A DNA stretch of 64,000 nucleotides from Paenibacillus sp. HGH0039. GTDB lineage: Bacteria; Bacillota; Bacilli; Paenibacillales; NBRC-103111. Of this stretch, positions 2,328 to 54,314 are shown piece after piece; positions within the stretch are counted from its first letter, which is position 1; every line of letters starts with the position of its first letter. The position numbers were made by a program, and so were the translations under genes. The notes under the pieces were generated by a model. The model ran no database searches, was not told the DNA's origin, and saw only the letters and a program-made list of their open reading frames with translations. The DNA is taken from assembly GCF_000411255.1 (NCBI RefSeq), contig NZ_KE150413.1, forward strand, positions 970,999-1,034,998. The letters are read 5' to 3'.

Positions 2328-3287
2328 ATGAAAATAATACCAAGATACGATGAAGATTTTTTTAACTGTGTGGAAAGTCATTACGTCAGCTATTGGAAAG
2401 CAGAAGGCATCCCGGTTGAATATATGTTTTACGGCGCCTTGGAGGATACCGGTAACGTCTATGAGCATTTTGTCGCAAAAAGGGACAACCGCTGGCTTTT
2501 CCACGATAAAAAACACGTTTTGGACGATATTCATCATTTCGGCCTGACATTACGCCAGGAGAGAATCGAAACGTTCCAAGAAGCGGAACCGAAAATTATC
2601 GAAGCGCTGGATGAGGGGAAAATCGTGTTTTTCTTCATCGACGGGTACTATTTCAAACACCGCACCTTTACTTATCTCCAAAAGCATGAACCCCACTGCA
2701 TGATGATTTCCCAGCTCAGCCACGAGGGCGGAAAGAAATGGTTTATTCAAGATCACTCCCAGCCGGATTTCTTCGACTACTACCCCCATGAAACGGTTGA
2801 AAAAGCCTATGACGATAACCCCACAGAACAATTTGTGAAAGAAATCATGATTTTCGACATCGACCGCGAACGGGCGGCCAATCCTGAACTGGATCAAATC
2901 AAAGCGAAATTCGAGCTCTGGGTCCACGAATGCCGCGACGATTTTAAAATTTACCAGCAGACTATCGACTTTCTGGAAGTCAACCGTGAAGACATCTCCA
3001 AGGTAGAAGAAGAACTGGAGGCATACCAGAATGCGTTTTTCTTCCTTTACAGCTCCCGGCTGCTGTTCAGCCGATTCCTCGATGTCATGAACATTGAAAC
3101 CTCCATCCGCGAATCTTTAAATGAAAGCATCCAATTGACCGACCGAATCCGCAAGCTGATTACCAACTACAAAATCTTGGGGAAAATCAGTGTTCCCAAA
3201 ATTACGGAAGCATGCGGCAAACTCTACGAAATCGAGCCTAAAATGATCCAGACTCTTAAAGAAGAGCTGCTGGCACAGAAAATATAG
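2328..3287 (+). CDS. BtrH-like cysteine acyltransferase, copy 1
   Basis: 319 residues. The N-terminal ~150 residues match the butirosin biosynthesis protein H fold, a papain-like domain: Cys14 in DFFNCVESHY, a His pair H120/H123 in KHEPHC, and Asp142 in FIQDHSQ, which together would form a Cys-His-Asp triad. BtrH moves an acyl group from an acyl carrier protein onto the amine of an aminoglycoside, so this copy may transfer an ACP-bound acyl or aminoacyl group. The C-terminal half is charged and helical. An ACP gene begins 15 bases downstream, which strongly supports an ACP-linked role. The start ATG lies about 13 bases after AAGGAG. Two further relatives are at 11905 and 12952. The reaction and acceptor are inferred. 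Confidence 0.75.
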   Translation: MKIIPRYDEDFFNCVESHYVSYWKAEGIPVEYMFYGALEDTGNVYEHFVAKRDNRWLFHDKKHVLDDIHHFGLTLRQERIETFQEAEPKIIEALDEGKIVFFFIDGYYFKHRTFTYLQKHEPHCMMISQLSHEGGKKWFIQDHSQPDFFDYYPHETVEKAYDDNPTEQFVKEIMIFDIDRERAANPELDQIKAKFELWVHECRDDFKIYQQTIDFLEVNREDISKVEEELEAYQNAFFFLYSSRLLFSRFLDVMNIETSIRESLNESIQLTDRIRKLITNYKILGKISVPKITEACGKLYEIEPKMIQTLKEELLAQKI

Positions 3288-3302
3288 GAGGAGTCAACTT
3301 TT

Positions 3303-3554
3303 ATGAATCCAATCGAGCACAAAATCAGAGAAATTCTTACACAGGCGGACATTGCCGTCGACCAGATCGGAAGCAATGACGATATGACCACAATGGGGCT
3401 TAACTCGTTAACCCTGATTAAATCCATGCTGGAAATCATTAAATTTTACGATCTCGAAATCGATGAGGAAAGCGTGGAATTTTACAACATCAAAACGATT
3501 CAGAACATGGTGGACTTCGTGTCCGCGAATGTGGCCGAGAAAGCTAACGCTTAA
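3303..3554 (+). CDS. acyl carrier protein 1
   Basis: 83 residues with the four-helix carrier-protein pattern. The attachment Ser is in MGLNSLTLIKSMLEI, where the usual DSL is NSL, so the phosphopantetheine site is probably functional. The acidic second half (DLEIDEESVEF) is typical of ACPs. It lies between a BtrH-like transferase and a flavin oxidoreductase with short gaps, so it probably carries the substrate handled by both. It needs a phosphopantetheinyl transferase, which is not in this window. Confidence 0.88.
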   Translation: MNPIEHKIREILTQADIAVDQIGSNDDMTTMGLNSLTLIKSMLEIIKFYDLEIDEESVEFYNIKTIQNMVDFVSANVAEKANA

Positions 3555-3595
3555 CAAAAAACGGGATTTTAAATAGGGAAGGGGCATTTATTTTA

Positions 3596-5290
3596 ATGGA
3601 AAAAACAGCAGGAACAGCAGCACACTATGATGTGATCGTAATCGGGGCGGGAATCGCGGGAACGATCCTGTCCGCCATATTGGCCAGACAGCAGCTCAAC
3701 GTGCTCGTCATCGATGCGGCCACTCATCCGCGTTTTGTGATCGGGGAATCCATGATTCCCGCCACATCTTTTATGATGCGGATTATGGCCGAGCGCTACG
3801 ATGTGCCGGAAATCATGCACTGCAGCACACTGCCGTTTGTTCAAAATCATATCACATCGAATTCCGGAACAAAACGCAATTTCTCGTTCTTCTATCACCG
3901 TGAGGGAGAGGACCAGAATCCGAAGGAAAGCACGCAGTTGCCGGTGCCTAATATCCCTTACGGACCCGAGGCTCATTTGTTCAGACAGGACACCGATGCC
4001 TACATGATGGCGGTGGCCATTAAATACGGCGCCAAAGTGAAGCAGAAGACGATGATCTCCGATATCGACATTCACGAGGATGGCGTAAACATCAAAACGA
4101 CGGCGAACGAAGAGTTCAGCGCCAAGTATATCGTAGACGCGAGCGGCTTCAACTCCGTATTGGCGAAACGTCTCGGTCTGCGCGAAGAGCCGTCGCGGAT
4201 GAAAACGAAATCCCGTTCCATTTTCACCCATATGGTAGGCGTAAAACCGTTCGACGAAATTACAAATAAGGACGAGCACAAGCTCCCGAATCGGATTCAT
4301 AACGGTACGCTGCATCATATTTTTGACGGCGGCTGGCTGTGGGTCATCCCGTTCGACAACAACGCGAAATCGACGAGTATTCTTTGCAGCGTAGGTCTTC
4401 AATACGACCTGAATCGCAATCCGGACAACGTTTCGAACAAAAAGCCGGAGGAAGAATTTGCCGACTTCCTCGAAGCTTATCCCGATGTCAAAAAACAGTT
4501 CGAAAATGCTAAACCGGTAAGAGAATGGATTTCCAGCGGAGGCCGGCTTCAATATTCCGCAAGCAAGGTTATCGGCAAGCGCTTCTGTCTGCTGGCACAC
4601 GCTTCCGCATTTATCGACCCGCTGTTTTCCAGGGGCCTTGCCATTACGACGGAGACGATCAACTCGCTTGCCCAGCGCTTAATCGACGCCGTGAGAGAAG
4701 ACGACTTCAATGAAGAGCGCTTCGAACCGGTTTCCCGTATCATCCAGCAATCTTATGACACGAACGACCGCCTCGTTTCCTGCTCGTACACCGCTTTCCG
4801 TGATTTTAACCTCTGGAATGCCTGGTACCGCGTATGGGCGCTCGGACAAGCTTTTACTTCCCTTCGTCTGACTCAAGTCCTCTCCAAATTTTACAAAGAA
4901 AGAGACTTGCAAATCCTGCTTGATATCGAGAAAGCTCCTTTCATCGGCTCCTTGTGCGTGGATTTTGCGGAGTTCCAGCCTCTGTTTGAAAAGGTAGCTT
5001 CGACGGTGGAAGCGGTCCGCGATCATGGGCTTTCTACGGAAGAAGCGACCAAACGGATTTACGGTTATTACGAAGAAGTGCAGAGCTTCATTCCGGAGCA
5101 GTACGAATTTTTGAACCCGGAAAGACGCTTTATTTCCAAAATGGATATGCTTTCCCTCTATGAAGTCGTCATGTGGGGTGCGCAGCAGGCGCCGGATACG
5201 ATCCGTAAGCTGTATTTCGATATCGACGAATCTTTCCTGAAGGGAACGAAGGAGCCGGCTTCCAATGAGGTTCCCGTTGCGACGGTATAA
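3596..5290 (+). CDS. FAD-dependent halogenase-like oxidoreductase
   Basis: 564 residues. The Rossmann FAD motif GAGIAG is at residues 17-22 and a GES motif at 50-52. Two signatures of flavin-dependent halogenases are present: WxWxIP as WLWVIP (247-252) and F-x-x-P-x-x-S-x-G as FIDPLFSRG (339-347). The catalytic Lys that binds hypohalous acid, normally in a K-x-G segment, seems absent: by-eye alignment gives N89-S90-G91 there, with K93 nearby. It may therefore be a halogenase relative that hydroxylates, oxidises or decarboxylates instead. The adjacent ACP suggests a carrier-tethered substrate. The reduced flavin would come from a separate reductase not seen here. Confidence 0.8.
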   Translation: MEKTAGTAAHYDVIVIGAGIAGTILSAILARQQLNVLVIDAATHPRFVIGESMIPATSFMMRIMAERYDVPEIMHCSTLPFVQNHITSNSGTKRNFSFFYHREGEDQNPKESTQLPVPNIPYGPEAHLFRQDTDAYMMAVAIKYGAKVKQKTMISDIDIHEDGVNIKTTANEEFSAKYIVDASGFNSVLAKRLGLREEPSRMKTKSRSIFTHMVGVKPFDEITNKDEHKLPNRIHNGTLHHIFDGGWLWVIPFDNNAKSTSILCSVGLQYDLNRNPDNVSNKKPEEEFADFLEAYPDVKKQFENAKPVREWISSGGRLQYSASKVIGKRFCLLAHASAFIDPLFSRGLAITTETINSLAQRLIDAVREDDFNEERFEPVSRIIQQSYDTNDRLVSCSYTAFRDFNLWNAWYRVWALGQAFTSLRLTQVLSKFYKERDLQILLDIEKAPFIGSLCVDFAEFQPLFEKVASTVEAVRDHGLSTEEATKRIYGYYEEVQSFIPEQYEFLNPERRFISKMDMLSLYEVVMWGAQQAPDTIRKLYFDIDESFLKGTKEPASNEVPVATV

Positions 5291-5311
5291 CATGTCGGGA
5301 GGACGTAAATC

Positions 5312-6586
5312 ATGCATCTTCTTCTCAATGTAATAGTCGCTCTGATTCTCATTCTTACGTCTGCGCGGATTATGGCGAGAGTGGCGGTCATGCTGAGATT
5401 TCCTTCCGTAATCGGGGAGATGGTAGCGGGGATTCTTCTGGGACCCACCTGCTTCATGTATTTCTTTCCCGAGATCAGCAAATCGGTATTTAATGCGGAT
5501 GTCGGCAATGCGATCTACATTTTAAGCAATTTCGGCTTGTGCCTGTACATGCTGCTCGTCGGTATGGAGATGAAAGGCATCGACCGGAAATCGTTCCGGC
5601 AGGCCGGCTTGCTCGCTTCATCGGGAATTATTCCTCCCTTTCTGCTTGGGGGAGGAATCTCCCTCTTCCTGTATGCGTCCCTTGCGCAGCAGCAGATTAC
5701 CCAGCTCGAATTTTTCCTGTACATGGGTGTCGCTTTATCCATTACCTCGATTCCTATGCTGGCGAGAATCCTCGAAGAGGAGAAGCTGCTTCAGTCCCGT
5801 TTCGCCTCGCTTACTCTGCTGGCGGGAAGTATAGACGATGTGATCTCTTGGTGTATTCTGGCTGTTGTCATCGTCATGGTACAAGCCAAAAATATGTTCT
5901 CGGGAATATCTACTCTGTTGTACACCGTTCTATTCGTTCTGATTGTGCTGTTTGTCGTCAAACCGCTCATGGAACGCTTTGGCGCAAAGGTTCAGAAAGC
6001 CGGTTTTTTGTCGCACGGAGGATTGGCTTTAGTGCTGTTATTGACTTTGGGCGCGAGTTTCGTCACGGAATACATCGGCATTTATGCTGTCTTCGGCTGT
6101 TTTATTCTGGGACTGGCCATGCCGCGAAGCGAAGTGTTTCTCAACGAAATGAACTTCAAAATCAGGGACATTACCGTCGTCTTTTTTCTCCCGCTTTATT
6201 TCGCCTATTCGGGTATGAAGACGAATCTGCTGGACCTGTTCAGCGCCGATATGCTGTTTCCGTTCCTTATCCTGCTGCTTTTCTCCATTCTGGGCAAATA
6301 CGGCGGATGCACGCTTTATATGAGAAAGATCGGATTCAGCTGGAGGGAAGCATCCGCAGTCGGCGGCTTGATGAATGCCAGAGGTCTGATGGAGCTGGTC
6401 GTCATCAACATAGGGATGACTTACGGAATTATTACGCCTAAGCTGTACGCCATGCTCGTACTGATGGCGCTTGTTACTACCGCTCTCGCTATGCCGATCT
6501 ATTATTTCTCCATGGGGACCAAGTCTCGTGCGGCTTCGGCGGTATTCCCTCCTAAAGTCCAGTACCGTACAGAGGACGGGGGATAG
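5312..6586 (+). CDS. CPA2-type Na+(K+)/H+ antiporter
   Basis: 424 residues, with about twelve to thirteen membrane helices. It resembles the cation:proton antiporter-2 (Kef/NapA) family: an N-terminal segment with VIGEMVAGILLGP, SIDDVISWCILA with the paired acidic residues expected in the ion-binding helix, and GGLMNARGLMELV near the end. No C-terminal NAD-binding domain is present. It starts 21 bases after the flavoenzyme and lies between the two ACP genes, so it is co-transcribed with the cluster. Antiporters of this kind occur in some biosynthetic clusters, perhaps for self-protection or energised export; that role is inference. Confidence 0.85.
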   Translation: MHLLLNVIVALILILTSARIMARVAVMLRFPSVIGEMVAGILLGPTCFMYFFPEISKSVFNADVGNAIYILSNFGLCLYMLLVGMEMKGIDRKSFRQAGLLASSGIIPPFLLGGGISLFLYASLAQQQITQLEFFLYMGVALSITSIPMLARILEEEKLLQSRFASLTLLAGSIDDVISWCILAVVIVMVQAKNMFSGISTLLYTVLFVLIVLFVVKPLMERFGAKVQKAGFLSHGGLALVLLLTLGASFVTEYIGIYAVFGCFILGLAMPRSEVFLNEMNFKIRDITVVFFLPLYFAYSGMKTNLLDLFSADMLFPFLILLLFSILGKYGGCTLYMRKIGFSWREASAVGGLMNARGLMELVVINIGMTYGIITPKLYAMLVLMALVTTALAMPIYYFSMGTKSRAASAVFPPKVQYRTEDGG

Positions 6587-6616
6587 GAACATCAATCTGA
6601 AGAAGGTGGGAAAACG

Positions 6617-6874
6617 ATGAATATTCAAGACAAAATCAAACAATTTATTATGGAAGCCTCGGACGGAAATGTGACGCCGGAGGATCTGGAAAGAGTGGGC
6701 GACGACATCGGAAGATTGGGACTCGACTCCCTGGCGAAGATCAAAATCGTCGTTCTGCTGGAAGAAGCTTACGATATTGAAACTGAAGTGGAGGAAATCA
6801 GTCCGGAAGTGCTCAATTCCATTTCCCGTCTGGCGGAATTCATCGAGCAGGAAGTCCAGAAAATTTCTGTATAA
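6617..6874 (+). CDS. acyl carrier protein 2
   Basis: 85 residues. The canonical carrier motif LGLDSLAKIKI contains the Ser for phosphopantetheine, followed by acidic helices (LLEEAYDIETEVEEISPEV). It differs clearly from ACP1 in sequence, so the two probably serve different steps or partners. It is preceded by AAGGTGGG and lies between the antiporter and the class II aldolase. Confidence 0.9.
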   Translation: MNIQDKIKQFIMEASDGNVTPEDLERVGDDIGRLGLDSLAKIKIVVLLEEAYDIETEVEEISPEVLNSISRLAEFIEQEVQKISV

Positions 6875-6915
6875 CGCTCTTTAATCATTCTTCAACCGGA
6901 AGGGGACTAAAATCA

Positions 6916-7635
6916 GTGAGCCAGTTTATTGAAGAGATGGTCTATGCCTCTCAAATTTTGTACCTGGAGGGACATAACGACATTAACAACGGGCAAATTT
7001 CCTACCGTGATCCTGAATCGGGAAATATCTGGATCCGGAAAGGGTTCCTGGGCTGGGAAGAAACGACGCCTGACGATTTTATCCTTATCGATTCCGAAGG
7101 CAACCGTTTGAAGGGAGAGGGGCATATTCCCTCGGAATGGCCGCTTCACACAGAAACCTACAAAGCGAGGGCGGACGTGAACTGCATTATCCATTCGCAT
7201 CCCCCGTATTCCATGATTTTCAGTGCCACGGATTTGGACCTTCGTCCGGTCACGCACGATGCTACGCCGATTATGAATACACAGCGGTTTACGCTGACTA
7301 CAAATACGGTAACGAATCCGAATATTGCGGCACAGGTAGCCGAGTCGCTCGGTAAAAGCAACACGCTGCTGCTCAAAAACCACGGGCTGGTCGCAGCCGG
7401 CAAAACGATTCCGGAAACCGTCTGCTGGGCGGCCGTTCTGGAGAATGCTTGCAAACTTCAGCTGATCGCCGAATCGACAGGTGTTCCCTACACATGGACA
7501 GAAGGCCATGAGATCAAAATGAAAAGCAAAATCATTTTTGGCGCGACAGCGATCCGGGAATACTGGGCCTACTGGTGCAGGAAGGCAGACCGGCATTTTA
7601 ATCCCCATTCCAAAAATCATTTGGTAGGAGTGTAA
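6916..7635 (+). CDS. class II aldolase/adducin family protein
   Basis: 239 residues from a GTG start about 10 bases after GGAAGGGG. The zinc ligands of the L-fuculose-phosphate aldolase family are visible: HSHPPYS gives two His and KNHGLVAAG the third. The catalytic Glu lies in PSEWPLH. Members split or join carbon chains next to a hydroxyl or act as related decarboxylases. In this cluster it could make or cleave a hydroxylated intermediate. The stop is one base before the next gene's ATG, implying translational coupling. Substrate unknown. Confidence 0.85.
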   Translation: MSQFIEEMVYASQILYLEGHNDINNGQISYRDPESGNIWIRKGFLGWEETTPDDFILIDSEGNRLKGEGHIPSEWPLHTETYKARADVNCIIHSHPPYSMIFSATDLDLRPVTHDATPIMNTQRFTLTTNTVTNPNIAAQVAESLGKSNTLLLKNHGLVAAGKTIPETVCWAAVLENACKLQLIAESTGVPYTWTEGHEIKMKSKIIFGATAIREYWAYWCRKADRHFNPHSKNHLVGV

Positions 7636-7636
7636 C

Positions 7637-10525
7637 ATGACCAATCAACTGTTAACTCAAGAGGATGTTCTGTCCATTTTCTACAATTTAAAAGGCCGGG
7701 AATACGTGGGAAGCAAATTTTCCAAATCTCCGCGTCCCGAAAGACATAAAAACTTCGAGGGACCCTATACCCGCCTGAAAACATCCGTTTTTAACAAAAC
7801 CAATGAGGATATGCTGCCCAAGACAGGGTTAAGCATTCTGGAGCAGGTGCTGCTCAGCTCCTTCAGTGTCACGTCGGTTAAATTTTACGGCTACCAGTCC
7901 GAAATGCTGTGGTCGTTCCCGTCTGCCGGAGGCTGCTATCCGGTCGATGTGTATGTTATTGTCCGTTCGCTGGACGGTGTGGAGCCGGGCATTTATTATT
8001 ACTCGCCTCTCAATACTTCTCTTCATAAAATCGCCTGCGCGGATTCCCTTTTTCTGCTGGATGAGGCGATCCTTCCACAGGACCAGGACGCGGATTATTA
8101 CATCATGGTTTCGGCCGTTCCATGGCGCAGCTGCTGGAAATACTCCCATCGCGGCTACCGTTTCAGCTTCATCGACGCGGGCCATGTCCTGGCAAATTTC
8201 CAGACGATCTTCCATTCGCTCGGCGTAAATTTTACCACGTATACCGCATGCAAAGATCAGCATATCAAAACGCTGCTTCATCTGGACAGCCACGAGGAAC
8301 CGGTCGGCATTATTGCCGTCAAGCAGCACGAAACCAAACCTCGGGCCGTACAGCAGGCCTATCGCGGGAATTATCAAAGCCGCTGCATCACTACGTTCGA
8401 CAGCGGTTTGTCCGCTTTCGACTGGGAACCGATCCGGTTGTACCAGGAGAAGGTGCGCCAGTCTCTCCAGCATCAGCAGCCGTCTGAGGACTGGACGGTA
8501 CGCCATCATATCCCGGCGGAATGGAACGATTACAATGAGATGCTGCGACTGATCATCGAACGCCGCTCCAGCTCCTCCTATCTGCCGGTTGAAATTCCGC
8601 GTCACGATTTCATCCGTCTGCTGGAATTTGTAAACAGCCTCGGTATGCCGATCCGCATATTCTGCGTCGTCCATGCCGTGGAGGGCATGATTCCCGGCAC
8701 GTACGAATTCAACGGCAGCGAGCTGAAAATGATCAAGGCCGGCGATTTCAGAGCCCGCTCCACGCAGCTTTGCTTCGATCAGGAATTCGTACACGATTCG
8801 TCGGTCCTGTTCTTCTTTGCGATTGATAAGTCCCAGGTGAATGACAAAAACTTTTACACCTATCAGCAAAGACTGGTAGATATGGGAATTCTGGCTCAAA
8901 TGATCTACCTGAAGTCGGGAGAACTGAAGCTGGGTTACTCCGCTATCGGCGGTTATTACGACGAAGAAGCGAAGGAATTGTTTAACCTCGGGGAAAACAT
9001 GGACCTGCTCTACTCCGGTACGCTGGGCAAAGATGACGTCAACTCCGCCTTCAAGGTTAAAATGGACCGCTACTATCTGAACAAACCGAAAGACAGCGAA
9101 GAGGTAAAGGGTGATTCGCCGGCTCAAAACGAGCGCATCATCGACAAGCTGTATGAGGCGGTGCTGAAATACGGACCGAAAGAAGCGATCCGCTACGCGG
9201 ATGAAAGCTATACGTACCACCAGTTCTGGAATCAGGTGGAGAAGACGGGCGCGTGGATCAAACAGCAGATTCCGAAGCAGTATCCCGTGGGGATTTCCAT
9301 GAAGAACTGCCCGAACTATTTGTTCGCGTACTACGGCCTTCTTCTGGAAGGATATATCCCGATGCTGATCGATCACACCTTTACCCAGGATGAGGTGGAC
9401 AACCTCTGCTCTTACTACAACATCGGATCGCTTCTTACACTTGACGGAGAGGGCCGGATTCAGGTCCAGCTTCGGGAAGAAAGCTTCGATTCGTTCGACG
9501 AAGACGAATTTGCGAATGTGGCGACCTGCCGCTTCTCCTCGGGTACGACAGGGCGGCCTAAATGCCTGATGTTCACTCATGATGCGGTGATTAATGCCGG
9601 AGTCAACTGGGCCAAGGCTTCGGGGATCACTTCCGCCGATAACGTGCAGGTAACCGCGCTGTTTCATAACGGACTCGCATTCAATACGTCCCTGCTTGCC
9701 GTATTCGTGTCGGGCGCCTGCCTGTTTATCGCGAAGCAGATTACACCGAAGTCGATCTGGGAAACGGTCATGAAGGAAAACATCTCGATTCTGGTCGCTT
9801 TCCCTGTCGTCTACGATTTGCTCAACAACTCCAAATATTGCAAACCGGAACACAGCCTCCGCTTGTGCTTGTCCTCTGCGGCTCCGCTGCATCATGCCGT
9901 GAAGCAGGCGTTTCTGGACAAGACCGGTATGGAAATTTGCGATTATTACGGTATCGTCGAGGCGGGTCCTTGTACGTTCAACAACGGCAGCAAAGAAGCT
10001 TCGCTCGGTACGCCGGTTCCCGGAGTCGATATCCGGATCGTGAACGAAGAGGGCTTTGCCGTTGCGGATGGTGAATCGGGCATTATTCAAGTCCGTTCCT
10101 CCTCCATGGCCAAAGGCTACTATAAAGCCTCCTTCCCGTTTGTCATATCGCCGGACGGCTATTATCAGACCACGGACAGAGGTTTTATCGAACACAACCA
10201 CTTGTACATTAACGGCCGTTCTTCCGACATGATCAACGTCGCCGGCAAGAAGATGGACCCGCTTGAAGTGGAAAATGTCCTGCTGAAGCTGACCGGCGTC
10301 CAGGATGTCGCCGTTGTCGGTGTCATGAATGAGCGGAAGACGACCGAGTATCCGGTAGCCTTCGTCGTACTTGATCCGGGTGTGACGATTGACGATCTTA
10401 TCGCACACTGCCAGCAGTATCTGGCTCCTTTCAAGCTGCCGCAAAAATTCGTTACGGTAGATAGCATTCCGCGCAGCGGGGTCGGCAAAATCAAGCGCAA
10501 GGAATTAGCGGATTCACTGTCATAA
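7637..10525 (+). CDS. tandem SagB-type oxidase plus AMP-dependent ligase fusion
   Basis: 962 residues in three parts. Residues about 45-235 are a SagB/ThcOx-type nitroreductase domain (SFPSAGGCYPVDVYV, then GIYYYSP). Residues about 285-475 are a second nitroreductase-like domain (ERRSSSSYLP, LGYSAIGGYYDEE). Residues about 500-962 are an ANL adenylation domain with SSGTTGRPK (A3), YYGIVEAGP (A5), TTDRGF (A7), NGRSSDMINVAGKKMDP (A8) and the terminal GVGKIKRK containing the catalytic Lys. SagB-like enzymes use FMN to oxidise azoline rings or aminoacyl thioesters. The fusion suggests activation of an acid or amino acid, loading on an ACP, and flavin oxidation of it. The domain calls are firm; the reaction is inferred. 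Confidence 0.85.
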   Translation: MTNQLLTQEDVLSIFYNLKGREYVGSKFSKSPRPERHKNFEGPYTRLKTSVFNKTNEDMLPKTGLSILEQVLLSSFSVTSVKFYGYQSEMLWSFPSAGGCYPVDVYVIVRSLDGVEPGIYYYSPLNTSLHKIACADSLFLLDEAILPQDQDADYYIMVSAVPWRSCWKYSHRGYRFSFIDAGHVLANFQTIFHSLGVNFTTYTACKDQHIKTLLHLDSHEEPVGIIAVKQHETKPRAVQQAYRGNYQSRCITTFDSGLSAFDWEPIRLYQEKVRQSLQHQQPSEDWTVRHHIPAEWNDYNEMLRLIIERRSSSSYLPVEIPRHDFIRLLEFVNSLGMPIRIFCVVHAVEGMIPGTYEFNGSELKMIKAGDFRARSTQLCFDQEFVHDSSVLFFFAIDKSQVNDKNFYTYQQRLVDMGILAQMIYLKSGELKLGYSAIGGYYDEEAKELFNLGENMDLLYSGTLGKDDVNSAFKVKMDRYYLNKPKDSEEVKGDSPAQNERIIDKLYEAVLKYGPKEAIRYADESYTYHQFWNQVEKTGAWIKQQIPKQYPVGISMKNCPNYLFAYYGLLLEGYIPMLIDHTFTQDEVDNLCSYYNIGSLLTLDGEGRIQVQLREESFDSFDEDEFANVATCRFSSGTTGRPKCLMFTHDAVINAGVNWAKASGITSADNVQVTALFHNGLAFNTSLLAVFVSGACLFIAKQITPKSIWETVMKENISILVAFPVVYDLLNNSKYCKPEHSLRLCLSSAAPLHHAVKQAFLDKTGMEICDYYGIVEAGPCTFNNGSKEASLGTPVPGVDIRIVNEEGFAVADGESGIIQVRSSSMAKGYYKASFPFVISPDGYYQTTDRGFIEHNHLYINGRSSDMINVAGKKMDPLEVENVLLKLTGVQDVAVVGVMNERKTTEYPVAFVVLDPGVTIDDLIAHCQQYLAPFKLPQKFVTVDSIPRSGVGKIKRKELADSLS

Positions 10526-10536
10526 GCAAAACTCCC

Positions 10537-10563
10537 GCACCGGCGGGGAAACACCGCCGGTGC
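10537..10563 (+). other. strong intercistronic stem-loop without T tract
   Basis: GCACCGGCGG (10537-10546) pairs perfectly with CCGCCGGTGC (10554-10563). No U-run follows, so it is more likely an mRNA stability or processing hairpin, or a partial attenuator, between the ligase gene and the aminotransferase gene than a complete terminator. Confidence 0.6.
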
Positions 10564-10592
10564 TCCATAAAACGCATAAATGAGGGATAAAC

Positions 10593-11837: not shown

Positions 11838-11904
11838 TCCCGGCGCAGAGGCAGCATGGACAGGACAGAAGGCTGCCCTCAATTTGAAGAAGGAGTGAAG
11901 GCGC

Positions 11905-12918
11905 GTGAAAACGGGAACTAAAGTGCTGCCTGTGGAGATACCTCCCATCCATGGACGCATGTATTACGCGTTTCCTTTGAGCATACTCGGTCCGGCCGGT
12001 TCTTATATGCCCTGGATGCTCAATAATTTTATACAGCTGCAGGCTTATTCGCTGACCAGGACCCGGGAAGAGCAAGTCGCGGAAATCCGTTTCTATAACG
12101 CGGACGAGCCCGGCTGTTTCAGTGAAGTGCTGACAATAGTGCCGGAGGCGGCGGGAAAAGAGCAGGACATTCACCGGCAGGCGGTGGAAGCCATTGACCG
12201 GGGCCAATACGTGTATGCCTATGTAGATAAATATTATGTGGCGGACAACCCTTTCCACGGAAAAAAACACGTTGTCCAGGAAGCGCTGATTTATGGATAC
12301 GATCTGGAGGAGCAAACATTTCAGATTCTCGGCTTTAACAAAAGCAGACTGTTCGCTTCTTCAACCGTCCCTTTCGCCGACATTGCCAAAGGGATCGTTC
12401 ACTCTCCCGTTACGGATGTTTTCCTGTTGAGGGCGAGAGAAGATTTCAATCCGGAGTTCCAACTGGACAAGGTGATCCCGCTTCTGACCCAGTACGTAGA
12501 CTCGGCGGATAAGCATACCGGTCTTGCACTCCCCGAGCGCTCTCAACTGGTGTTCGGACTCGACGTATACAAAAGTGCTGCGGAGTCTTTGAGGTGCATT
12601 CTGGACAGAGAAGGTGCTGTCGTTACGAATATCGCGTACCTCCATATCCTCTGGGAGCACAAGAAAGTCATGGGAGTCCGGCTTCAATACATGCAGGAGC
12701 ATGGGATAGCCGTACATTCCGGTCTGGACATCGTACAGGAAGCATACAAGCAAATGGAACAGGAATTGTTCAACTTGAGAAACAAATTGCTCAAATACGA
12801 GCTCACCCAAAGCGCGCGTCTGATCGAACAGATCATACAAAGTCTCGATACGATGGCGCTGAAAGAAAAGCAGGTTCTGGAACTTTGGCTGGAAAGACTG
12901 GCTATGATACCGGGCTGA
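11905..12918 (+). CDS. BtrH-like protein, copy 2, probably catalytically dead
   Basis: 337 residues from a GTG start 10 bases after AAGGAG. Overall pattern and length match the BtrH-like proteins at 2328 and 12952, including a His-containing segment FHGKKHVVQEALIYGYD (H118, H122). No Cys is present where the others have their catalytic Cys: the N-terminal helix is LSILGPAGSYMPWM. Asn145 stands where the others have Asp. It is therefore probably a non-catalytic relative that acts as a partner or scaffold, or uses another mechanism. Its place next to copy 3 suggests a hetero-oligomer. Homology is inferred from the shared pattern, since sequence identity is low. Confidence 0.6.
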   Translation: MKTGTKVLPVEIPPIHGRMYYAFPLSILGPAGSYMPWMLNNFIQLQAYSLTRTREEQVAEIRFYNADEPGCFSEVLTIVPEAAGKEQDIHRQAVEAIDRGQYVYAYVDKYYVADNPFHGKKHVVQEALIYGYDLEEQTFQILGFNKSRLFASSTVPFADIAKGIVHSPVTDVFLLRAREDFNPEFQLDKVIPLLTQYVDSADKHTGLALPERSQLVFGLDVYKSAAESLRCILDREGAVVTNIAYLHILWEHKKVMGVRLQYMQEHGIAVHSGLDIVQEAYKQMEQELFNLRNKLLKYELTQSARLIEQIIQSLDTMALKEKQVLELWLERLAMIPG

Positions 12919-12951
12919 TTTTCATCTCGATTAAGAAGGGAGCGCGCTGCG

Positions 12952-13950
12952 TTGACGTATAACCAATCTCTCCGCCCGTTTAACGACTTCTGGATGAACT
13001 GCGTGTCGAACACGGTCTATTCCATTGCCGTCTCAAATGATTCCAGCTACCGGACGGCTGCTTATCTGAACCACTACACGTATCAGGTCGCAACGGATTC
13101 TTCATTCACTTATTTAACGATGGACCACCCGCTTAAGTATCAGAATGAGGTTTTTGATACGTTTATCCGAGAGTGGGAGCCTTACTTTTTCCGGAATCCG
13201 CAGGCAATCGGGAAAGAAATCGGCGAACTGCTGGATAGCGGTCAGCTCCCGGTCGTTCACGTGGATTTATTCCACTGGATTCCGAACTCGCTCGCCTGGA
13301 AACAGTACCACTGGTACCATTACTCCCTGATCACCGGTTACGATGCGGAGCGTTCGGTATACCGGGTTCTGGATGACGATATCAACGGCTTCCGGGATTT
13401 TGAAGTTCCTCCCGAACGTCTCCAGGAGGCTTTTCTCAGCTCGCAGACGGAGAATAATCCGGCATATCAGGAACCTCCATGTTCTCTGATCCGGCTGAAG
13501 GACCGGATTCCGCCTTACGAATTCAAGCTTTCCGATTTGAGCCGTCATGCGGAAAGGCTGATCGGAGAGCTGGACAACCTGCAGACGGAGCATTTGTGGG
13601 AGGGAACGCCGGAACCGGACAAGTTTGAAGAGAGCATGACCAACGGACTGGTCGGCGTCAATATTATCGAAAGCAGACAGGCGGGAAATCGGCTTATGCT
13701 GCGGTATTTACTGGATGCAGGGTTCATCCGGGAAGCTGATTTTCAGACGCTTGACCAGGAGCTGGAGGAATTGGCCCTGGGCTGGTTCAAAGCGAAAAAT
13801 GTGTTTATCAAAGCGAAATTTTCGCTGAAAAGAAGGTTTAACCGAGATCAGCTCCTGACCCTGGCCGTGCCGCTTCTTTACCGGGAGAGAAATTTCTGGT
13901 CGGCGCTTCTCGAAAGCACCGGCGCCGCAGCACTCTCCAAGGAATCTTAG
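12952..13950 (+). CDS. BtrH-like cysteine acyltransferase, copy 3
   Basis: 332 residues from a TTG start after AAGAAGGGA. The N-terminal half has Cys17 in DFWMNCVSN, H120/H123 in QYHWYHYSLITGYD, and an Asp run at 141-143 in VLDDDINGF. Spacing is nearly identical to copy 1, so a papain-like Cys-His-Asp triad is plausible. The C-terminal half is helical, with charged segments. It follows copy 2 by 33 bases. Presumed role is acyl transfer from one of the two ACPs or amide-bond formation; acceptor unknown. Confidence 0.7.
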   Translation: MTYNQSLRPFNDFWMNCVSNTVYSIAVSNDSSYRTAAYLNHYTYQVATDSSFTYLTMDHPLKYQNEVFDTFIREWEPYFFRNPQAIGKEIGELLDSGQLPVVHVDLFHWIPNSLAWKQYHWYHYSLITGYDAERSVYRVLDDDINGFRDFEVPPERLQEAFLSSQTENNPAYQEPPCSLIRLKDRIPPYEFKLSDLSRHAERLIGELDNLQTEHLWEGTPEPDKFEESMTNGLVGVNIIESRQAGNRLMLRYLLDAGFIREADFQTLDQELEELALGWFKAKNVFIKAKFSLKRRFNRDQLLTLAVPLLYRERNFWSALLESTGAAALSKES

Positions 13951-13977
13951 GAAGGCGGCCAAGGAGGGCACTAAGCT

Positions 13978-15939
13978 ATGAAATATATCGGTACGGAACA
14001 AGCGGAGGCGTCCCAGCACCATGGAGGGCTCCAGCCTGTTCCCGGAGTCCGGCATTACCAGGCGATCCGGGCTTGCAGGCTTAAGCCAGATCTGGAAGGG
14101 GGACCTGGCTGGACCTTTCATAATGCGCCTATGCTGGCTTTCTGGAGACAGCGGTTTTATTTGCAGTATATTACATGTCCTGTGGAAGAGAATCATCCAC
14201 CCACCCGGACGATGATTACAAGTTCGACGGACGGCAAGGAATGGACCGAACCGGTGATTGCGTTTCCTTCCTACGTGATACCGACGGGGGTATATAGCGG
14301 GCCGGACGGGGCTGACCTGCCGAGCGGCAGCCTTGCCGTCATGCATCAGCGTATGGGGTTTTACACGGCAGCCGACGGAAGACTGCTGACTCTGGGCTTC
14401 TACGGCATCAGTCCGGTTCTTTCCGTGATGCCCAATGACGGCCGCGGAATCGGCCGGGTCGTACGTGAGATATACCCGGACGGGTCCATGGGCCCCATTT
14501 ATTTCATCCGGCTGAACGCTCATGCGGGATGGAATGCCGGTAACACAGGCTATCCTTCGTATACGGAATCGCGGGATGAGGGGTTTGTCGAGGCATGCCG
14601 GCTACTACTGCAAGATAGGCTGGCGACGATTCAGTGGTGGGAAGAGGATCAGAGCGAGGATGGTTTTTATCCGCTTACGGGCTACAAAGCGCTGAGCTGC
14701 TATCCCCTTCCCGGAAACAAGGTAGCCGGTATCGGCAAGAACGGCAAATATGCCCTAAGCGAAGACGATGGGGAAAGCTGGACAGAGACGGGGGAGATTG
14801 ACGGTCTGGTCACAGCGGGCAGCAAGCTGTGGGGCCAGCAAACGCCGGACGGCAAATATGCGCTGCTGTACAATCCCAACCCGAACAACGCGTACCGCTG
14901 GCCGCTGGCCGCAGCCGTAAGCGAGGACGGGCTTCACTTCGACAACCTCCGGTTAATCGGAGGAGAAGTTCCCCCGCGCCGCTATACGGGCTTTTACAAA
15001 TTTTACGGGATGAATTATGTCCGCGGAATATCGGCCGGAAACGGCACGCCGGAAGAGGACGCAATCTGGGTCGCTTACAGCATGAACAAGGAGGATATTT
15101 GGGTGGCCCGCATTCCGGTGCCCTTAGAGCCGGATTTTCATGAAGATGGAGATGCGGCAACTCCTCCGGCAGACACGGATACGGGTGGCTCGATCCTTGA
15201 GGGAAGAGTGTACGGCCTGCCCGGCTCTTCCATTGAAACGGCACAAGCAGCAGCCCCGATGCCGGACACCGGCGGCTCCGGTCTCGTATCCGCAGCCGAG
15301 CAGACTTGCGAAATGCCCGCTCTTTCAAGCTCCGGCCTGGAAGATTTCGACCGCTGGAGTATCTACCGGCCCAAGTGGTCGGAGATCCGATTAAGAGTAG
15401 ATTCCGGCCTGATCTTGAGCAGCCGCGACCCCTATGACTACGTCAAGGTGGAGAAAACTTTCACTTTTCCCGCCGGCATTCAAACGGATGTGACAATCGG
15501 TATCCGGCCTCTTGCCATCGGTCCGGCACCTTTTACGATCGAGCTGACCGATGGCCGGGGCGAAACGGCTGGCGGACTCCATTGGAGTACGGACGGACGT
15601 ATTTCGGTCCTGCAAGAAGAAAGTGACGTATTCTTACAAACCTACGAAGAGGGCACCGAGTATGAATGCGTGCTGTCCATTGATCCGGAAAATGGCCGCT
15701 TACGCATTTCTATAAACGGAATACCTGCTGGAAATCCTTTTGAGTACCGTGCAGCGAAGGTGGGAACCGTCGCGTTCAAAGTAGGCGAGAGGCCGTTCCG
15801 TGTCTCTCTGGATACACCCTTGGACGGCGGGGACCTCAGCATCCCGGACGAGCCGCTTCTTCCCTCCGCTTACTGCATCCGCTATGTGAAGCTTCAAAGT
15901 TCGCGTTATTCAAATCGTGTGCAAGCCGAAAGGAGATGA
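13978..15939 (+). CDS. sialidase-like beta-propeller protein with C-terminal beta-sandwich
   Basis: 653 residues, no signal peptide, hence probably cytoplasmic. Residues about 40-390 show repeated Asp-box-like turns (SSTDGKEW, SEDDGESW, SEDGLHF), typical of BNR/sialidase six-bladed propellers. Residues about 455-640 look like a jelly-roll or LamG-like sandwich (WSEIRLRVDSGLILS, RLRISINGIPAG). A linker of low complexity joins them. Such proteins are often glycoside hydrolases or sugar-binding proteins, but I cannot identify catalytic residues. Its presence inside the cluster hints at a sugar-containing substrate or acceptor, in line with the NodB deacetylase downstream. Function uncertain. Confidence 0.55.
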   Translation: MKYIGTEQAEASQHHGGLQPVPGVRHYQAIRACRLKPDLEGGPGWTFHNAPMLAFWRQRFYLQYITCPVEENHPPTRTMITSSTDGKEWTEPVIAFPSYVIPTGVYSGPDGADLPSGSLAVMHQRMGFYTAADGRLLTLGFYGISPVLSVMPNDGRGIGRVVREIYPDGSMGPIYFIRLNAHAGWNAGNTGYPSYTESRDEGFVEACRLLLQDRLATIQWWEEDQSEDGFYPLTGYKALSCYPLPGNKVAGIGKNGKYALSEDDGESWTETGEIDGLVTAGSKLWGQQTPDGKYALLYNPNPNNAYRWPLAAAVSEDGLHFDNLRLIGGEVPPRRYTGFYKFYGMNYVRGISAGNGTPEEDAIWVAYSMNKEDIWVARIPVPLEPDFHEDGDAATPPADTDTGGSILEGRVYGLPGSSIETAQAAAPMPDTGGSGLVSAAEQTCEMPALSSSGLEDFDRWSIYRPKWSEIRLRVDSGLILSSRDPYDYVKVEKTFTFPAGIQTDVTIGIRPLAIGPAPFTIELTDGRGETAGGLHWSTDGRISVLQEESDVFLQTYEEGTEYECVLSIDPENGRLRISINGIPAGNPFEYRAAKVGTVAFKVGERPFRVSLDTPLDGGDLSIPDEPLLPSAYCIRYVKLQSSRYSNRVQAERR

Positions 15940-15948
15940 CGTGCTTCT

Positions 15949-17394
15949 GTGACCATTTTATTAAAAAACTATATATCCGGCAGTTGGCAGGAATCTTCTT
16001 CGTCCGTGACCGAAACGGTCTATAATCCGGCGAACGACGGGGTTATCGCTCAGGTCCCGCTGTCAACCCGCAAGGATCTGGATCAGGCGGTCCAAGCGGC
16101 GAAAGCCGCCTTTCTGCCCTGGAAAAACACACCCGTCCAGAAAAGGGCGAGGATTCTTTTCAAATACCAGCAGCTTCTCGTTGAGGCCTGGGACGAGCTT
16201 GCCGCTCTGATTACGAGGGAGAACGGGAAATCCCAGCAAGATGCGTATATGGAAGTCCAGCGCGGTGTCGAATGCGTGGAATTTGCGGCGGGTATTCCGT
16301 CCCTCATGATGGGACAGATTACCCCGGACGTGGGCACCGGTGTGGAGACGACTATGCTGCGCTACCCGATTGGGGTTGTGGGGGGCATCACACCGTTTAA
16401 CTTCCCCATGATGGTCCCGTGCTGGATGTTTCCTATGGCGATTGCCTGCGGCAATACGTTCATTTTGAAGCCGTCCGAACGCACGCCTCTGCTTGCGAAC
16501 CGGCTTGCCGAGTTGTTCACGGAAGCGGGCCTTCCCGATGGCGTGTTCAATATCGTACACGGAGCGCGCGAAGTGGTGAACGGCATTCTGGAGCATCCCG
16601 AGATCAAAGCCGTATCCTTCGTCGGCTCGCAGCCGGTTGCGGAATATGTGTACAAAACGGCGGCACAGCACGGAAAAAGAGTACAGGCGCTGGCCGGAGC
16701 CAAAAACCATTCCATTGTTATGCCGGATGCGGATGAGGAGCTTGCGGTCAAAAGCATTATCGAGTCGGCTTTCGGATCTGCAGGCGAACGTTGCATGGCT
16801 TGTTCCGTTGTCGTTCTGGTCGGTGGAGATCGCGACGGCTTAAAACAGAAACTGCTTGCCGCGGCGGATCGGTTGCAAATCGGTAACGGCGAAGATAAGG
16901 AGACGGAGCTGGGCCCCCTTATCCGCCAAAGCCACAAAGACAGGACCCTGGATTATCTGAGCTCCGGCGAACAGGAAGGCGCCGTTCTGCTGCGGGACGG
17001 CAGAAAAGACGGGGCCGCATCCGGAGCGGGATATTTCCTCGGCCCGACCGTATTCGGCGAAGTGACGCCGGCGATGAAGATTTGGCAGGATGAGATTTTT
17101 GCGCCGGTATTGTCCATCATGCAGGCGGACAGCTTAGAAGAGGCGATTGCGATAGCCAACCGCTCTTCTTTTGCCAACGGCGCCTGCATATACACCGGAC
17201 AGCTCGGAGCCGTCCGCCAGTTCCGCGAGGAAATAGACGCCGGAATGCTGGGAGTGAATATCGGCGTACCGGCTCCGACGGCGCTTTTCCCTTTCTCCGG
17301 GTACAAAAATTCTTTTTACGGCGATCTGCATGTAAACGGTAAAGACGGACTTGAATTTTATACGCGCAAAAAGGTTATGACCGTGAAAGCCTGA
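15949..17394 (+). CDS. CoA-acylating aldehyde dehydrogenase, methylmalonate-semialdehyde dehydrogenase-like
   Basis: 481 residues from a GTG start after AAAGGAG. ALDH superfamily features: [34 protein letters not shown], and the catalytic Cys in [14 protein letters not shown], the pattern of the MmsA/IolA branch. In the usual active-site Glu segment [18 protein letters not shown], this branch has Asn, consistent with the CoA-acylating type. It would oxidise a semialdehyde to an acyl-CoA with NAD+. It starts 9 bases after the propeller gene stop, so it is likely part of the same operon. It may provide or remove a three- or four-carbon unit of the product. Confidence 0.88.
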
Positions 17395-17434
17395 GGCTAA
17401 ACCGATGCGGGACACATGGAAAGGAGCGTGACGA

Positions 17435-18436
17435 ATGGAGCTGCTCAAACAGGAAACCGAGGACATTGTCAGTGTGAAACTGCCTGTCGGCAGTGTCCTG
17501 CAGTGGCTGAACGCCTACCTGATCCGTGGGGAAGACGGATACACGCTGCTCGATGCTGGAATGCCCGATGAAGAAACGTTCGGCTTGTGGCAGCAGGCCT
17601 GGAGACATCTGGGGATTTCTCCGCGGGATATCCGCTCCATTATTATCACTCATCATCATGTGGATCATTACGGGCTGGCCGCCAGGCTCCAGGATGTGAC
17701 GGGGGCTTCGGTGCGGATGACGGAAGCCTGCTTCCTTCAGGCCTCGCGGATTTGGTCGGCGGATTCCGTCTACGATGAAGAGGTACTGGAGCTTTTTACC
17801 CGGCACGGAGCCCCCGGGCATCTGCTTGAAGTTACGGCGCCTGAACTGAAGCATTACGTGAAGTCTATGACTGCCCACCCGGATACGGAGTTTATAAGGG
17901 CAGGCGATAAACTTGCGCTCGGTAAGTCGATCTTCGAAGCCGAGCTGGTGTCCGGTCACGCGGAAGGACATCTCTGTCTCTACGACAAACAAGAGCAGCT
18001 CGTTTTTTGCGGGGATCATGTGATTCCGAAAATGCTGCCGAACCTTAATTTCACGCTCGGATTTGACGAGAATCCGCTCAGCTCCTATTTCAGTTCGCTG
18101 AAGGAACATGCCGAACTGCCTGTCCGGAAGGCTTATCCGGGGCATATGATTCCTTTCCGTAAGTACAACGCCCGAGCGGCCGACATTGCGGCCCAGTACC
18201 GGCAGCGCATCGACGACATACTGGCCCGGATGGACAAGCCGATGACCGCCTTTGAATTGTGCTGTCTCGTGTTCTTTGTGCCGGTAAATGCGGAACAGCT
18301 CCGTTTTAAGCTGTTTGAAATGCTGGCCAGCCTGAATTATTTGCAGAGCCTGAACTTGATTGAAACAGCGGAAGCGGGAGCGGACGGGCGGCTTTATTAC
18401 AGACGTGCACCCGCACATGCAAATCGGAACCCATGA
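17435..18436 (+). CDS. metallo-beta-lactamase-fold hydrolase
   Basis: 333 residues. The metal site motif THHHVDHYG is at about residues 72-80. The further ligands are in SGHAEGHLCLY, FCGDHV and YPGHMIPF. Overall it resembles glyoxalase II-like or RNase Z-like hydrolases, with an extra C-terminal helical domain with winged-helix character (about 265-325). Thioesterase, lactonase or phosphodiesterase activity are all possible. In an ACP-based pathway, a thioesterase or lactonase role is attractive but unproven. It follows the aldehyde dehydrogenase by 40 bases. Confidence 0.82.
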   Translation: MELLKQETEDIVSVKLPVGSVLQWLNAYLIRGEDGYTLLDAGMPDEETFGLWQQAWRHLGISPRDIRSIIITHHHVDHYGLAARLQDVTGASVRMTEACFLQASRIWSADSVYDEEVLELFTRHGAPGHLLEVTAPELKHYVKSMTAHPDTEFIRAGDKLALGKSIFEAELVSGHAEGHLCLYDKQEQLVFCGDHVIPKMLPNLNFTLGFDENPLSSYFSSLKEHAELPVRKAYPGHMIPFRKYNARAADIAAQYRQRIDDILARMDKPMTAFELCCLVFFVPVNAEQLRFKLFEMLASLNYLQSLNLIETAEAGADGRLYYRRAPAHANRNP

Positions 18437-18450
18437 AAGGATGAGAACCT

Positions 18451-19248
18451 TTGGAAGCAAACAAAATAGTGGACTGGGCGCATCTGATCGGCGTAATAGC
18501 CGAAGCGGGCCTTACTTATGCCTCGGACAGCAACGATCTGAAAAGATACGGGGTTATTAAGGAAGCGGCGCAAGATATGCTTTCTCATTACAGAGAGCCG
18601 CATGAGGATCTCCCTCGCAGAGTTCCGAACGGAGAAAACAAAATTTATTTAACGTTTGACGACGGCCCCGATCCGGTTTATACTCCGCAGATCCTGGATC
18701 TTTTAAAGAAATACGGCATCACCTGTACGTTCTTTTTAATGGGGGAAAGGGTGCGGGAGCACCCGCACATCGTCAAGCGGATACTGGATGAAGGGCATGC
18801 GATCGGCAATCATACCTACACCCATCCTTACATGGTCCTTCTTAATGAGAAAGAGTTGAACGAGGAGCTGTCCCGGACGGATGAAGCCATGCGGGATGCC
18901 GTCGGTTTTGCGCCCGTTCTTTTCCGCCCTCCGTACGGCCTGTTGAATCAAGGGGACATCGATCTGGTCCGGGCCCGGGGGTATGAAATTATGATGTGGT
19001 CGGAGGAATTCGAAATGTTCGACTGGTCTTTCCCCGGCGTTGACAACATGGTGCGCCTCATTGAGGAAAAGACAGAGGCCGGTAGTATTATTCTGCTCCA
19101 TGACGGAGGAGGAAACCGGGAAGAAACCGTCCGCACGGTGGAGAAAGTCGTTCCTCTACTGCTCGAGCGAGGCTTTCACTTTGCCTCAGACTACCTGGAG
19201 CAGAGCCGGAATGAACATGGGCACGAAGCGGCAGGAACGGCCCGGTAA
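18451..19248 (+). CDS. NodB-type polysaccharide deacetylase
   Basis: 265 residues from a TTG start, 15 bases after the MBL gene. Carbohydrate esterase 4 motifs are in order: LTFDDGPD (motif 1), GNHTYTHPYM (motif 2 metal His pair), FRPPYG (motif 3), and LLHDGGG (motif 5). No signal peptide is seen; most family members act outside on chitin or peptidoglycan, so an intracellular enzyme fits de-N-acetylation of a soluble amino sugar intermediate, as in some aminoglycoside-like pathways. It is the last gene of the co-directional set, convergent with bluB. Confidence 0.87.
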   Translation: MEANKIVDWAHLIGVIAEAGLTYASDSNDLKRYGVIKEAAQDMLSHYREPHEDLPRRVPNGENKIYLTFDDGPDPVYTPQILDLLKKYGITCTFFLMGERVREHPHIVKRILDEGHAIGNHTYTHPYMVLLNEKELNEELSRTDEAMRDAVGFAPVLFRPPYGLLNQGDIDLVRARGYEIMMWSEEFEMFDWSFPGVDNMVRLIEEKTEAGSIILLHDGGGNREETVRTVEKVVPLLLERGFHFASDYLEQSRNEHGHEAAGTAR

Positions 19249-50337: not shown

Positions 50338-50425
50338 TCCCCCTGAATTGTAATATGCTGGATAATTATATCACATTAGTGAGGTCATAGAATTGTTTAA
50401 AAGTATTCACTAATAAATTGCAAAT

Positions 50426-50451: not shown

Positions 50452-50462
50452 TTTCTCTATAC

Positions 50463-54311: not shown

Positions 54312-54314
54312 CTT

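Follow-up and report, generated by a model that had tools for sequence, protein, structure and literature searches.

A window of 64,000 nucleotides from the 6.36 Mb genome of Paenibacillus sp. HGH0039 (contig NZ_KE150413.1, positions 970,999 to 1,034,998) was analysed, in which 14 co-directional open reading frames (ORFs) occupy positions 2328-19248 (Table 1). The intergenic gaps measure 1-67 bases, and the two largest, of 67 bases each, flank the aminotransferase gene. The initial annotation had described this layout and proposed a biosynthetic cluster that relies on acyl carrier proteins (ACPs) and is devoid of nonribosomal peptide synthetase (NRPS) or polyketide synthase (PKS) modules. Family profiles agree with its labels for the ACPs, the ligase/oxidase fusion, the halogenase, the aminotransferase, the aldolase, the aldehyde dehydrogenase (ALDH), the metallo-beta-lactamase-fold (MBL) hydrolase and the NodB deacetylase. 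Its list omitted the CPA2 antiporter and the BT_1020-like propeller protein. The absence of modules is also supported: family scans found no NRPS condensation domain or multidomain module among the 14 proteins, and no NRPS or PKS module is seen in the window because its longest listed ORF is 962 aa long (ORFs crossing the window ends being left out of the list). No described pathway with this gene set was matched in family libraries or open-licence literature. What is reported below on the genes present, their conservation, their families and their critical residues was observed directly; it establishes a real and conserved cluster, built around carrier proteins without an NRPS and containing an unusual fusion of oxidase and ligase, which is more than a list of families.

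Table 1. Genes of the cluster and the adjoining transporter gene, in window coordinates.
Feature	Position	Strand	Evidence
Major facilitator superfamily (MFS) transporter	741-2066	+	PF07690 105 bits; outside the range of the 14 genes
Putative BtrH-like acyltransferase 'a'	2328-3287	+	PF14399 20.0 bits (sub-cut-off, 29.7); Cys14, His123, Asp142
ACP1	3303-3554	+	PF00550 26.5 bits; GLNSL site
FAD halogenase, CtcP/PltM phenol lineage	3596-5290	+	7xgb 432.6 bits, 6bza 373.1 bits; motifs, Lys93
CPA2-type cation:proton antiporter	5312-6586	+	PF00999 152 bits; TIGR00932 124.7 bits, under its cut-off
ACP2	6617-6874	+	PF00550 27.3 bits; relative in 7/7 cassette loci
Class II aldolase-fold lyase/decarboxylase (predicted)	6916-7635	+	PF00596 136 bits; E74, H93, H95, H156
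Tandem SagB oxidase (~residues 1-490) and AMP ligase (~500-962) fusion	7637-10525	+	TIGR03605; PF00501, PF13193
Aminotransferase, LL-diaminopimelate aminotransferase (DapL) model	10593-11837	+	NF004937 688 bits
BtrH-like 'b', without N-terminal Cys	11905-12918	+	PF14399 13.5 bits (sub-cut-off); hhalign to 'a' 96.6%
BtrH-like 'c'	12952-13950	+	PF14399 21.5 bits (sub-cut-off); Cys17, His123, Asp141-143
BT_1020-like beta-propeller with sialidase-like carbohydrate-binding module	13978-15939	+	PF24067 327 bits, PF22585 65.6 bits; 5mqr 418 bits
CoA-acylating methylmalonate-semialdehyde dehydrogenase-like ALDH	15949-17394	+	TIGR01722 608 bits (cut-off 448.5); 1t90 640 bits
MBL-fold hydrolase	17435-18436	+	PF00753 83 bits
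NodB-type polysaccharide deacetylase with N-terminal Nudix_N domain	18451-19248	+	PF01522 131 bits, PF12535 39 bits

The genes do travel together across genomes and two families, as a neighbourhood search demonstrates, so that the refuting outcome named in the initial annotation, separate inheritance of the genes, was not observed. With the fusion protein as query, four of the 104 genomes of the family match at E 1e-60 (G000, G058 and G061 over the full length, G019 by the SagB part alone), while in a sample of the phylum the only match at E 1e-80 among 398 genomes is the window's own genome. The SagB part used separately matches 12 of the 392 genomes of the order at E 1e-20. Six of these possess the fusion (G000, G058, G061, G679, G582, G660); a non-fused SagB didomain, located beside NRPS-type genes, is alone present in G019, G503, G510, G709 and G765 and is found besides the fusion in G582, and G027 gives a partial match. 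When the aldolase was used as query, six of 394 genomes of the other family matched at E 1e-55, and the fusion gene adjoins in all six. A plasmid origin was considered and rejected, as a plasmid collection gave no tblastn match to the fusion at E 1e-40. The six loci with the non-fused didomain (L007, L054, L056, L058, L060, L061) are of NRPS/PKS type and also encode glycosyltransferase-like and long beta-lactamase/ABC-like proteins; in four of them, a protein of 521-542 aa appears by eye to be BtrH-related.

All 14 genes are found in the same order in two of the four congeners, G058 and G061. In the other two, G059 and G060, the fusion was not found at E 1e-60, the DNA of window positions 6700-26000 matches the cluster body in short pieces only, and none of 16 query proteins matches within 19.9 kb around the flank. 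These two genomes nevertheless keep both flanking genes, yhbH-like to the left and bluB-like to the right (named by eye); the flanks are thus fixed, and the region between them that holds the cluster is variable. The complete set of 14 recurs in order in G679, a member of another family, with the MFS gene moved inside. An order preserved across a family boundary makes the clustering more than chance.

Seven non-redundant loci (window type, G679, G582, G859, G861, G873 and G660) were retained for gene counts, which miss genes beyond the fetched stretches and in which 'a' and 'b' types of BtrH-like proteins were assigned by best BLAST match, some at 22-28% identity. The aldolase, the fusion, the ACP2 type and BtrH 'b' are present in all seven, ACP2 lying about 7 kb from the aldolase in G861. 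The aminotransferase, the propeller, the BtrH 'a' type and the MFS transporter occur in six, the halogenase and the MBL hydrolase in five, the antiporter and the ALDH in three, and NodB, ACP1 and BtrH 'c' in two. The MFS gene, although located outside the 14, appears to belong to the set because its relative accompanies the cassette in six of the seven loci, including the window (partially, at the locus edge, in G861). Judged from these gene sets, the core consists of the aldolase-fold enzyme, ACP2, the tandem-SagB/AMP-ligase fusion and a BtrH-like protein, usually with the DapL-type aminotransferase.

This smaller core recurs in five loci beyond those with the full set, and its companions change. 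G861 adds an aminodeoxychorismate-synthase-like protein (TIGR00553 353.6 bits, cut-off 328.4), a class IV aminotransferase (PF01063) and two more AMP ligases (PF00501), along with four further ACP-like ORFs and FkbH-like and phosphopantetheinyl transferase (PPTase)-like proteins recognised by eye; no halogenase match was obtained in the stretch examined. In G873, a DltA-type ligase (TIGR01734 564.7 bits, cut-off 559.85) and a PPTase (PF01648) are added. In G660, the aldolase, the fusion, ACP2 and BtrH 'b' stand with two ketosynthase-like proteins, a 3,4-dihydroxy-2-butanone 4-phosphate (DHBP) synthase (PF00926) and, by eye, FabZ-, FabG- and ABC-transporter-like genes; a DapB-like protein (PF05173 103.9 bits, PF01113 57.8 bits) takes the place of the aminotransferase. 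As the sister loci pair the core with different genes, it behaves as a portable cassette with changing partners. The cassette at L070/L071, which is accompanied by para-aminobenzoate (PABA)-type genes, five ACP-like ORFs and three ligases, may be the richest of these dissociated assembly lines. At L052 (5292-20400), a polyene-like set is joined to the cassette, with FabG-, ACP-, ABC- and FabZ-like genes, two ketosynthase-like proteins, a glycosyltransferase-like protein and the DHBP synthase; it is reminiscent of the streptococcal cyl operon.

The SagB part of the fusion protein matches TIGR03605 in two stretches (160.6 bits, cut-off 78.4), and the two halves are homologous to each other (hhalign 89.8%, E 1.8e-6). 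They carry complementary motifs in all seven fusion sequences, WKY and PSAG in the first half and RRS in the second. In the oxidase domain of BmdC, an Arg-Arg-Ser motif is described as binding the FMN phosphate and a conserved Tyr as facing the flavin, and the oxidase (Ox) domain of the indigoidine synthetase IndC is described as pseudodimeric (PMC8795117). Complementary motifs are what is expected of a pseudodimeric Ox, and the tandem SagB therefore looks like one pseudodimeric oxidase with one composite site. Its physical junction to a ligase is consistent with the annotated idea of an oxidase acting on a bound substrate. The ligase part is nearest to malonyl-CoA, fatty-acyl, oxalyl and benzoate-type ligases, and a FHNGLAFN motif is invariant in the seven fusion sequences. 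Asn in place of the NRPS Asp235 is typical of aryl-acid adenylating domains. In an alignment of six fusions (that of G859 being left out), Asn678 and its equivalents occupy this column in all six, while the NRPS and DltA-type rows keep Asp; this argues against the 'aminoacyl' activation suggested initially. Both ACPs present their serine in a GL[ND]SL site.

The halogenase is similar to the tetracycline 7-halogenase (7xgb) and to PltM (6bza) over residues 9-529 of 564, and carries the GxGxxG, WLWVIP and FIDPLFSRG motifs. Its Lys93 aligns with PltM Lys87, whose replacement by Ala is reported to abolish activity (PMC6424973). The GxGxxG, WxWxIP and FxDPxxSxG motifs and the Lys are found in the five cassette halogenases. 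By similarity and motifs, the enzyme is assigned to the CtcP/PltM lineage with its catalytic lysine; a tryptophan halogenase proper was considered and rejected, CtcP and PltM being the closest solved relatives. It differs from CtcP and PltM in its location among carrier-protein genes.

The aldolase-fold enzyme is strongly conserved, its relatives being 66-78% identical to the window copy over the full alignment, and Glu74, His93, His95 and His156 are invariant in the seven sequences. The closest solved chains are three named Aldolase (8ix6 the best, 100.6 bits), followed by NovR (9ryg, 80.7 bits) and Mlr6791 (2z7b, 79.0 bits), the last presumably a pyridine-dicarboxylate decarboxylase. A lyase or decarboxylase activity may be proposed on these grounds. 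The aminotransferase is likely of DapL-like origin because of its model score, NF004937 having a cut-off of 585 bits. This model was matched in 14 of 40 relatives collected at E 1e-100, above the cut-off in 13, and within the genus it occurs only in the three cluster-bearing genomes of five. Nine copies lie outside clusters; by eye, the neighbour is a dapF-like gene in one case (L083) and rluD- and pyrR-like genes in most of the rest, and the window enzyme is 61-64% identical to these nine. The six cluster aminotransferases group in one clade, supported at 0.999 and marked by eight fixed differences. The best match among solved chains, at 225 bits, is 6l1l, BacF of the bacilysin pathway, while LL-diaminopimelate (LL-DAP) aminotransferase chains, including plant and algal ones, score 77-83 bits.

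None of the three proteins annotated as BtrH-like reaches the PF14399 gathering cut-off (Table 1), and they can therefore be assigned no more closely than to the superfamily. With E 0.1 as the limit, PF14399 matches seven of nine 'a'-type and four of nine 'b'-type proteins. The three groups are related to one another (hhalign 96.6, 95.3 and 95.2%). Cys14, His123 and Asp142 are invariant in all nine 'a'-type sequences, and the corresponding Cys17, His123 and Asp141-143 are found in 'c', for which two sequences were aligned. The nine 'b'-type proteins share no invariant Cys, and the middle protein of the window lacks the N-terminal Cys of 'a' and 'c'. With the low-confidence model of 'c', Foldseek returned at E 0.001 or better only AziU2-U3 (2 of 855 matches), CcbD being third at E 0.011; with the low-confidence model of 'b', only AziU3 or CcbD were returned at this threshold (5 of 917 matches). 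AziU2-U3, which presumably belongs to the azinomycin pathway, is thus the best match of both models. CcbD is described as a Cys-His-Glu ping-pong enzyme that takes a carrier-bound proline onto its own Cys and passes it to an amino sugar (PMC12945683), and these modelled matches would fit the annotated transfer to an amine or amino sugar. AsbE corresponds to DUF6005, described as a papain-like family (PMC11317620, PMC10318531); DUF6005 is weakly matched by one 'a'-type and one 'b'-type protein. Elsewhere, BtrH-like proteins have been reported from a dialkylresorcinol cluster (PMC3949708), and they figure in operons predicted to combine ACPs with acyl ligases (PMC2922099).

Taken together, the cluster is moderately likely to encode a pathway of dissociated parts, without an NRPS, that leads to a halogenated amide or ester of aryl or heteroaryl type and is completed by transfer from a carrier to an amine (or hydroxyl) group; we infer each reaction, substrate, acceptor and product as follows. 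The aldolase-fold enzyme and the DapL-type aminotransferase would supply or shape an aryl-type carboxylic acid, which the ligase domain of the fusion would adenylate and load onto ACP2. As a single pseudodimeric FMN oxidase, the tandem SagB of the fusion would dehydrogenate or aromatise the acyl group on the carrier, and the CtcP/PltM-type halogenase would chlorinate an electron-rich ring, free or carrier-bound. The Cys-His-Asp proteins 'a' and 'c' would then take the acyl group from the carrier onto their Cys and deliver it to an acceptor with an amine or hydroxyl group, in a CcbD-like manner, the Cys-less 'b' serving as partner or scaffold. The propeller, the MBL hydrolase (a possible thioesterase) and, more variably, the ALDH and NodB could act on the acceptor, by trimming or preparing it, or set free the product, which the MFS transporter and the antiporter could export; the latter has a possible role in export or self-protection. 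This pathway is supported by the co-conservation across two families, the halogenase lineage and residues, the Asn at the Asp235 position, the FHNGLAFN motif and the complementary SagB halves, and by the matches of the low-confidence BtrH-like models to AziU3 and CcbD. Further support comes from the loading genes added in sister loci, namely the DltA-type ligase of G873 and, in G861, the PABA-type synthase and lyase, ligases and ACP-like ORFs.

Several observations nevertheless weigh against this pathway. The matches to the AziU3/CcbD fold have TM-scores of 0.26-0.43 and an rmsd of 7.7-11.3 A, from AlphaFold models with a pLDDT of 49.3 ('c') and 43.4 ('b'). VIA-align, run with 'c' only, aligned mainly residues 188-331 with helical chains, CcbD and AziU3 being absent among the 50 matches listed. 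A PDB search with a profile of each BtrH-like group gave no credible relative, and the relation of the three groups to one canonical BtrH_N protein is weak (hhalign 13.5, 11.7 and 0.7%). The Asn in the ligase is by itself no proof of an aryl substrate. No second ligase that could serve ACP1 was detected by family scans among the 14 proteins, and the ALDH, the antiporter and NodB, in view of their patchy distribution, may be accessory.

Among known systems, the acyl transfer is probably like that of the lincosamide and petrobactin pathways. The lincosamide synthetase (LmbC, a carrier domain and LmbD or CcbD) likewise combines a stand-alone adenylation enzyme, a carrier and a Cys-His-Glu condensing enzyme to join an acyl group to an amino sugar (PMC12945683, PMC4351081), and CcbD is the second fold match of the low-confidence models, after AziU3. 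It differs by its proline-type substrate, by the fusion of its carrier to a sugar enzyme and by the lack of a halogenase or of an Ox-ligase fusion. AsbE makes an aryl amide. The petrobactin AsbC/AsbD/AsbE and methylolanthanin mll systems offer a parallel to the cluster in their adenylation enzyme, aryl carrier protein and AsbE (DUF6005), as described in PMC11317620 and PMC10318531; the 14 genes include no NRPS-independent siderophore (NIS) synthetase or 3,4-dihydroxybenzoate (3,4-DHB) synthase, and a halogenase and an oxidase are added. In bacillamide BmdC and the Ox domain of indigoidine synthetase, a SagB/McbC-type oxidase likewise stands next to an adenylation domain and works on substrates held by a carrier, with a pseudodimer in IndC (PMC8795117); here, however, the pseudodimer is joined to the N-terminal side of a free-standing ligase, and heterocyclisation and other NRPS domains are lacking. 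The pyrrolyl-carrier pathway, evoked initially as an analogy, was rejected as family scans of the 14 proteins revealed no acyl-CoA dehydrogenase.

The other analogy evoked initially was butirosin, whose cluster is marked by an ATP-grasp ligase and genes of the 2-deoxy-scyllo-inosose (DOI) pathway. Butirosin BtrH/BtrI shares with the cluster an ACP and a BtrH-superfamily candidate, but none of the 14 proteins matches ATP-grasp ligase or DOI pathway families and the BtrH_N scores remain below the cut-off. A butirosin cluster was not seen in the window's genome with the single marker BtrH_N, whose best match (E 1.9e-11) is on another contig; the strongest BtrH_N match in the genus, in G058 (E 4.0e-43), lies beside a PadR-like gene (by eye). 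A route in butirosin or indigoidine style, in which the ligase would load an alpha-amino acid, SagB oxidise it and a BtrH-like enzyme transfer it to an amino sugar, is nonetheless favoured by the six loci where non-fused SagB didomain relatives stand beside NRPS-type genes, by the DltA-type ligase of G873 and by NodB, which could expose an amino sugar. We consider it unlikely, as the fused ligase lacks the Asp kept by DltA-type and NRPS domains in the same alignment. A tyrosine-derived 4-hydroxybenzoate would similarly account for part of the set: the aminotransferase would give an arylpyruvate, the aldolase-fold enzyme would perform the oxidative decarboxylation known for NovR/CloR, the ligase would load the acid and the phenol halogenase chlorinate it. 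The rank of NovR as the fourth-best solved relative of the aldolase-fold enzyme, the phenol-type halogenase and the score of 6l1l, far above those of the solved plant and algal LL-DAP aminotransferases (79-83 bits), are in its favour. NovR has Ala where Glu74 is invariant in the cluster enzymes; this speaks against a reaction of the NovR type, although Ala is also found in 8ix6, the closest relative. This route would also leave unexplained the SagB oxidase, the NF004937 match and the DapB-like gene of G660, and appears improbable.

The locus could also be divided in two, with an ACP-halogenase-ligase operon (2328-13950) next to a separate sugar-acid operon (13978-19248) tied to the downstream sugar ABC transporter. 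The GC content rises from 0.429-0.507 over 2328-6874 to 0.550-0.568 over 13978-18436, suggesting a mosaic origin and agreeing with such a division, as do the restriction of NodB to two and of the ALDH to three of the seven loci and the resemblance of the propeller to the beta-L-arabinobiosidase 5mqr, which presumably has a role in pectin. The division is made quite improbable by the linkage of the propeller to the cassette in six of the seven loci and of the MBL hydrolase in five, by the gap of only 27 bases at the supposed join and by the conserved bluB-like gene (by eye; 19398-20045, minus strand), which separates the cluster from the transporter. A bolder version of the carrier-to-amine pathway, speculative and rather unlikely, is that the portable cassette diverts tetrahydrodipicolinate or diaminopimelate from lysine biosynthesis to a pyridine-type carboxylic acid. 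The DapL-type aminotransferase (in one locus, the DapB-like reductase) would set up a cyclic imine, which the aldolase-fold enzyme would decarboxylate like its relative 2z7b; the fused aryl-type ligase would load the acid, the pseudodimeric SagB aromatise it on ACP2 and the halogenase decorate it. Papain-fold transferases would finally join the heteroaryl unit to swappable partners (PABA-type, D-Ala-type or polyene), each block having its own ligase and carrier. Its probability is lowered because only one of the nine outside aminotransferase relatives lies beside a lysine gene and the closest solved chain is not an LL-DAP aminotransferase.

If the halogenated amide or ester pathway is true, the cluster would represent a mobile natural-product module performing NRPS-like chemistry with free-standing parts (an oxidase-ligase fusion, a carrier and papain-fold transferases) and combined across species with halogenation, PABA-type, D-Ala-type or polyene genes. 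Genome mining based on modules may miss such loci, and the parts would be small enough for reconstitution and swapping.

Some minor features complete the description of the locus. No signal peptide was seen by eye in the propeller protein. The Nudix_N domain, N-terminal in the window NodB, has its matching piece just downstream of the deacetylase in G679. A scan for promoters and terminators was uninformative, yielding 16 and 28 sites where shuffled sequences gave 15.6 and 23.5. On the left side, from L085 19034-19901 up to window position 598, a MocR-like regulator (by eye) is encoded on the minus strand, divergent from the MFS gene; it is a single ORF of 487 aa in G061 and G058 and two overlapping ORFs in the window's genome. 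The far end of the window (49000-64000) is a prophage-like or other mobile region, with a GC content of 0.33-0.37 from about 50 kb and ORFs including a phage antirepressor (AntA, KilAC) and an RRXRR-HNH protein.

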